Assembly (NCBI GenBank): GCA_021161465.1
Contig: JAGHAM010000036.1
Location: 1-64,000 of the forward strand
DNA length: 64,000 nucleotides
Origin: Candidatus Iainarchaeum sp.
GTDB taxonomy: Archaea; B1Sed10-29; WALL01; JAGHAM01
Reading direction: 5' to 3'
How positions within the stretch are numbered: position 1 is the first letter of the stretch; each line of letters begins with the position of its first letter. Below the pieces are notes generated by a model, which was not told the DNA's origin, made no database searches, and saw nothing but the letters and a program-made list of their open reading frames with translations. Position numbers and translations under genes: made by a program. This document shows, piece after piece, positions 176 through 265 of the stretch.

Positions 176-265
176 AGCGGGGTGGAGTAGCTAGGAGAGG
201 CAAAACCCTAAATGCTCGTCGGGCTCATAACCCGAAGGTCGTTGGTTCAAATCCAACCCCCGCTA
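176..265 (+). tRNA. initiator tRNA-Met (CAU) with an enlarged D-loop, probable D-loop intron
   Basis: Acceptor strands AGCGGGG (176-182) and CCCCGCT (258-264) pair fully, including the A1:U72 pair typical of archaeal initiators. The discriminator is A265 and CCA is not encoded. The anticodon arm TCGGG-CTCATAA-CCCGA (219-235) has anticodon CAT at 226-228 and the three G:C pairs of initiators. The T-arm is GTTGG-TTCAAAT-CCAAC. The D-stem is GAG/CTC (185-187 with 215-217), but the loop between is about 15 bases too long, so the gene is 90 bases instead of about 75. The surplus folds as a bulge-helix-bulge splice motif (see the intron entry). I am sure this is an initiator tRNA. Confidence 0.93.
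198..212 (+). other. candidate 15-base intron in the D-loop of tRNA-iMet (bulge-helix-bulge)
   Basis: The D-arm can refold as AGC (189-191) with GCT (214-216), then a four-pair central helix TAGG (192-195) with CCTA (207-210). A three-base bulge lies on each strand: AGA (196-198) and AAT (211-213). Two three-base bulges flanking a four-pair helix is the geometry cut by archaeal tRNA splicing endonuclease. Cutting at equivalent positions in both bulges removes 15 bases and leaves a normal 75-base tRNA. Exact cut sites are uncertain by one base; cutting after the third bulge base would restore the conserved A21. Confidence 0.65.

Follow-up and report, generated by a model that had tools for sequence, protein, structure and literature searches.

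Near the start of the window (the whole stretch of 64,000 nucleotides that was analysed) an interrupted initiator tRNA-Met gene (CAU) lies on the plus strand at positions 176–265. It is 90 nt long and is the only copy found in a genome of 976,286 bases (40 contigs, 93% complete). The gene reads AGCGGGG TG GAGT AGCTAGGAGAGGCAAAACCCTAAAT GCTC G TCGGG CTCATAA CCCGA AGGTC GTTGG TTCAAAT CCAAC CCCCGCT A; its anticodon arm, GGGCTCATAACCC, is typical for archaeal initiators, and the A1-U72 pair is present. The Rfam tRNA model matches positions 181–265 with 42.4 bits and places the surplus bases in the D-arm, in agreement with the first-pass annotation, which had described a 90-base initiator with its surplus in the D-loop. 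ARAGORN in the standard mode reported no tRNA in the window and missed the gene at 176–265; hence its silence is uninformative. A putative TATA box, TATTTATA, can be read from the sequence on the plus strand at 142–149, 27–34 bp upstream of the gene. On the minus strand, the 3' end of a 102-aa alkyltransferase-like ORF (247–555, with a PCYKVV motif) extends over the final 19 bases of the initiator gene.

The surplus was delimited by comparison with the class to which the organism belongs (19 genomes, 0.3–1.3 Mb). The nearest relative compared, G001, which belongs to the same family but another genus, has an initiator gene of 75 nt that lacks exactly positions 198–212 and is otherwise 100% identical, and removal of these 15 nt (AGGCAAAACCCTAAA) from the window's gene gives a 75-nt product 100% identical to the G001 initiator. 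The insert is located in the D-loop, at 20a/21, between exon 1 (176–197, tRNA positions 1 to 20a) and exon 2 (213–265, tRNA positions 21 to 73), both identical to the G001 gene. Its border is fixed, as a shift in either direction is incompatible with the flanking bases, G|A and A|T. A check of homologous initiator genes had been proposed in the first-pass annotation: the insert is absent from G001 and from all other class members yielding a full-length 75-nt initiator, and the D-loops of these genes are normal. The initiators of G009, G010 and G012 carry an insert in or beside the anticodon loop instead. Identity as a group I intron was rejected, 15 nt being too short.

The ends of the insert coincide with the cut rule of the bulge-helix-bulge (BHB) motif. 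The 4-bp central helix and the two 3-nt bulges that define membership in the BHB class are present: the exon strand TAGG (192–195) pairs with the intron strand CCTA (207–210), and around this helix lie the bulges AG|A (196–198) and AA|T (211–213), with predicted 5' and 3' splice sites after 197 and after 212, respectively. When the 15-nt insert was shuffled, 0.29% of trials gave four Watson-Crick pairs at this fixed register; the share is 0.37% if G-U pairs are counted as well.

The helix and bulges thus stand as originally described, whereas the further claim that they form a canonical BHB was borne out only in part. The minimum-energy fold of the precursor (-35.3 kcal/mol) keeps the D-stem and the TAGG/CCTA helix and has a 2x2 internal loop instead of a strict bulge. 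The strict BHB conformer with an outer AGC/GCT helix (189–191 with 214–216) has -28.7 kcal/mol, the D-stem conformer being about 6.4 kcal/mol better; energetic proof of a strict BHB failed, since the D-stem conformer is favoured. The outer helix is possible, yet it competes with the D-stem and lies outside the minimum-energy fold, and it is the least supported element of the motif. The inner helix has at most one G-C pair. Given the predicted folds, the motif is best called a relaxed BHB.

We consider it very likely that the insert at 198–212 is a short BHB-type tRNA intron, placed at 20a/21 in the genome's single initiator tRNA-Met gene, and that it is spliced out. In the precursor, exon TAGG would pair with intron CCTA, and the endonuclease EndA would recognise this 4-bp helix, which the D-loop exon strand forms with the 3' end of the intron. 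EndA would cut after the second base of each three-base bulge, releasing 15 nt, and the RtcB ligase would then join the exons into a normal 75-nt initiator, which would be charged and function in this form. The mature tRNA elbow needs G18-G19, which the unspliced helix would sequester and which after splicing would be free to contact the T-loop. The 15-base D-loop intron proposed in the first-pass annotation, whose removal would yield a tRNA of normal length, agrees with the G001 gene, identical without 198–212, which points to splicing.

We regard it as very unlikely that the initiator stays unspliced, as a mature 90-nt RNA whose enlarged D-loop bears a small extra hairpin. The unspliced minimum-energy fold is indeed a cloverleaf with an extra hairpin on the D-arm, but this hairpin occupies G18-G19 (194–195); moreover, the insert is the sole difference from the G001 gene and obeys the cut rule exactly, and other tRNAs of the same genome have inserts in the T-loop and the anticodon loop that would be intolerable if left unspliced. 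One could also suspect a decaying pseudogene or an assembly error, as the assembly is of the metagenome type, in 40 contigs, one of which ends 176 bases away from the gene. This is scarcely credible: no second initiator gene was found in the genome, which is 93% complete, 75 of 75 exon bases match G001 although the EndA enzymes of the two genomes are only 85% identical, and the insert has meaningful structure. Finally, position 21 of tRNAs is usually A, and an intron spliced at other cuts, for example one at 199–213 leaving A21, would restore this base, but in the relatives position 21 is T and 20a is G, and only removal of 198–212 restores their sequence, so that we give shifted cuts hardly any weight.

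Archaeal BHB tRNA introns at non-canonical positions, of the D-loop type, were reportedly described by Marck and Grosjean in 2003. A scan of named genomes gave at least 120 archaeal initiators with D-arm inserts, representing at least 105 distinct sequences (the window's included), with inserts of 14–15 nt among them. The rarity that the first-pass annotation had ascribed to initiator D-loop introns is contradicted by these numbers: judging by the sequences, the short initiator D-loop intron is widespread in archaea and not exceptional. Among the matches listed, 97 of the 105 distinct sequences permit a 4-bp BHB that restores the normal length, a count that comes from a permissive BHB search. 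The fixed-register test is sharper: 48 of the 56 inserts at the same 20a/21 site among the matches listed show 4/4 pairing, with compensatory changes in the exon and intron strands (CAGG/CCTG, TAGG/CCTA, TTGG/CCAA), and this covariation lends the pairing independent support. The exon-junction sequence AGGAG|TGCCC, with the same site and motif, is found at three loci, L058 and L101 (both Woesearchaeota) and L157.

Initiators of Nitrososphaeria, Thermoplasmata, Thorarchaeota, Woesearchaeota and Micrarchaeota have D-loop introns in the same tRNA and the same arm as here. In Nitrososphaeria the introns, of about 14–15 nt, occupy the neighbouring G18/G19 site. Those of Thermoplasmata have about 26–28 nt and strong inner helices, whereas the present one has 15 nt and an inner helix of at most one pair. 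Thermoplasma acidophilum was rejected as an experimental precedent for the initiator, as an intron is reported there only in the elongator (PMC4307237). Archaeal BHB introns at non-canonical positions are known from D-loop, T-loop and anticodon sites (PMC6379350), and the initiator D-loop intron is a further example of this known kind: it shares with them the succession of 3-nt bulge, 4-bp helix and 3-nt bulge at the borders, as well as an excision that restores a normal tRNA, and differs in its very short length, its near-absent inner helix and the alpha4-like sole EndA of the genome.

The initiator is not the only interrupted tRNA gene of this genome. The Rfam tRNA model found only eight tRNAs, all of them interrupted, versus 32–44 in seven of eight other class members tested and 14 in G012. 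We then searched the genome with 31 mature G001 tRNAs, fetched the loci and made spliced alignments. All 27 tRNA genes modelled (loci L245–L281 and L313–L322) are interrupted, with one to four introns each and 50 introns of 12–172 nt in total. Two artefacts were merged from 52 raw introns, the spliced-alignment exons of 4–7 nt in Leu (L249) and Glu (L255) being judged artefactual, and the count omits the Lys model of L272. The universal interruption is not a selection effect, because uninterrupted genes are the easiest to find, and since every modelled gene carries an insert, splicing must be routine in this genome. A 4/4 central helix occurs in half of the 52 raw introns, against 13% of shuffled ones; the other raw introns are relaxed.

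A T-loop intron near 59/60 is present in 22 of the 27 genes. Several of these introns form repeated families, such as AAGAAGGGTTGCACCCTTTCTAAACCTGCAGG..., with near-identical copies at L245, L272, L254, L263 and L274. Queries with the T-loop intron families gave 39 matches in this genome and one significant match in G001; among 297 archaea surveyed, members of the class alone gave significant matches. One of these members, G012, which belongs to another family of the class, repeats one related intron family, with identical copies at L323–L325. The 3' end of the T-loop introns usually reads as the complement of TTCA, a part of the near-invariant T-loop, and this complementarity may explain how one intron family entered most tRNAs. 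Several contigs (C20, C25, C34, C2 and C5) end inside or beside repeated tRNA introns, which probably broke the assembly at these points.

The most interrupted gene encodes tRNA-Pro(GGG) and lies on the minus strand of contig C34 (L262, G000:C34:2000-2800): its four introns are in the D-loop, at about 32/33, at about 45/46 and in the T-loop, and three of the four have the full 4-bp central helix. The tRNA-Gly(GCC) gene, with three introns, lies on the window's own contig beyond the 64-kb window (C30:89303-89536; L272, G000:C30:88800-89653). It is adjoined in L272 by a tRNA-Lys-like gene that is also interrupted. In G001, tRNA-Gln(TTG) (L209, 159–261) has a D-loop BHB intron, and the same site is interrupted in this genome (L248).

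The reported maximum is three introns per tRNA gene, and the densest genome reported, that of Pyrobaculum calidifontis, has 71 introns in 46 genes (PMC8450103). Thus the four-intron gene exceeds the reported maximum, and the tRNA set, at about 50 introns in 27 genes, seems to equal or surpass the record density. A large-scale gain of tRNA introns in Thermoproteales is attributed to Fujishima et al. 2010 as cited in PMC3293823. As far as that citation goes, the present genome shares with Thermoproteales many non-canonical introns per genome, repeated families and several introns per gene; Thermoproteales, however, have an (alpha beta)2 EndA with the crenarchaeal loop, whereas in the class studied here a single alpha-type EndA is seen.

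The EndA gene (L039, 1474–1986, minus strand) encodes 170 aa and is the only one found: searches with PF01974 and with PF02778 each match this same gene, and a gene for a second EndA subunit was not found by these searches in the 93%-complete genome, of which 7% may be missing. The protein matches the EndA of M. jannaschii (1A79) over its full length with 102 bits and a one-residue gap; its alignment to the M. jannaschii enzyme has neither the crenarchaeal nor the ARMAN specific loop, and the protein contains no long insertion when compared with its homologues in the class. By sequence, it looks like an alpha subunit resembling the Methanocaldococcus alpha4 type, that is, euryarchaeal-like. 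The endonuclease type, which the first-pass annotation had marked for checking, is therefore a single alpha4-like EndA, while the accompanying description of the lineage as one with standard euryarchaeal genes was not confirmed, although the endonuclease itself is euryarchaeal-like. RtcB ligase is also encoded (565 bits), and the presence of both enzymes speaks for splicing of the initiator insert.

The type of this EndA, like the 2x2 internal loop of the minimum-energy fold, is a point against splicing of the initiator insert. The alpha4 and alpha2 types are reported to cut canonical motifs only, and a broad range of substrates is ascribed to (alpha beta)2 and epsilon2 enzymes with a specific loop (PMC4033280, PMC6379350). 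A relaxed BHB in a genome with an alpha4-like EndA therefore counts against the splicing reading, and, more generally, an intron-dense tRNA set coexists here with an endonuclease type said to be canonical-only.

By itself, the initiator intron is useful mainly for its exact borders, which can be read off from a near-identical gene without interruption; the genome is apparently more interesting than the intron, with what the sequences suggest to be permissive alpha4-type splicing and record-level interruption of tRNA genes. It is quite possible, though we would stop short of calling it probable, that an alpha4-type EndA with neither of the known specificity loops removes relaxed-BHB introns from practically every tRNA, that the T-loop family spread via TTCA(A) supplying the exon half of the motif, and that the initiator intron is a further product of the same process. 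If true, permissive alpha4 splicing would break the rule that broad tolerance needs a looped (alpha beta)2 or epsilon2 enzyme. The rule of endonuclease-intron co-evolution becomes directly testable with one recombinant protein. In practical terms, the standard tRNA finders used in this analysis detect hardly any tRNA genes in genomes of this kind. Elsewhere in the class, two EndA-like genes (L196 and L197) are found in G016.
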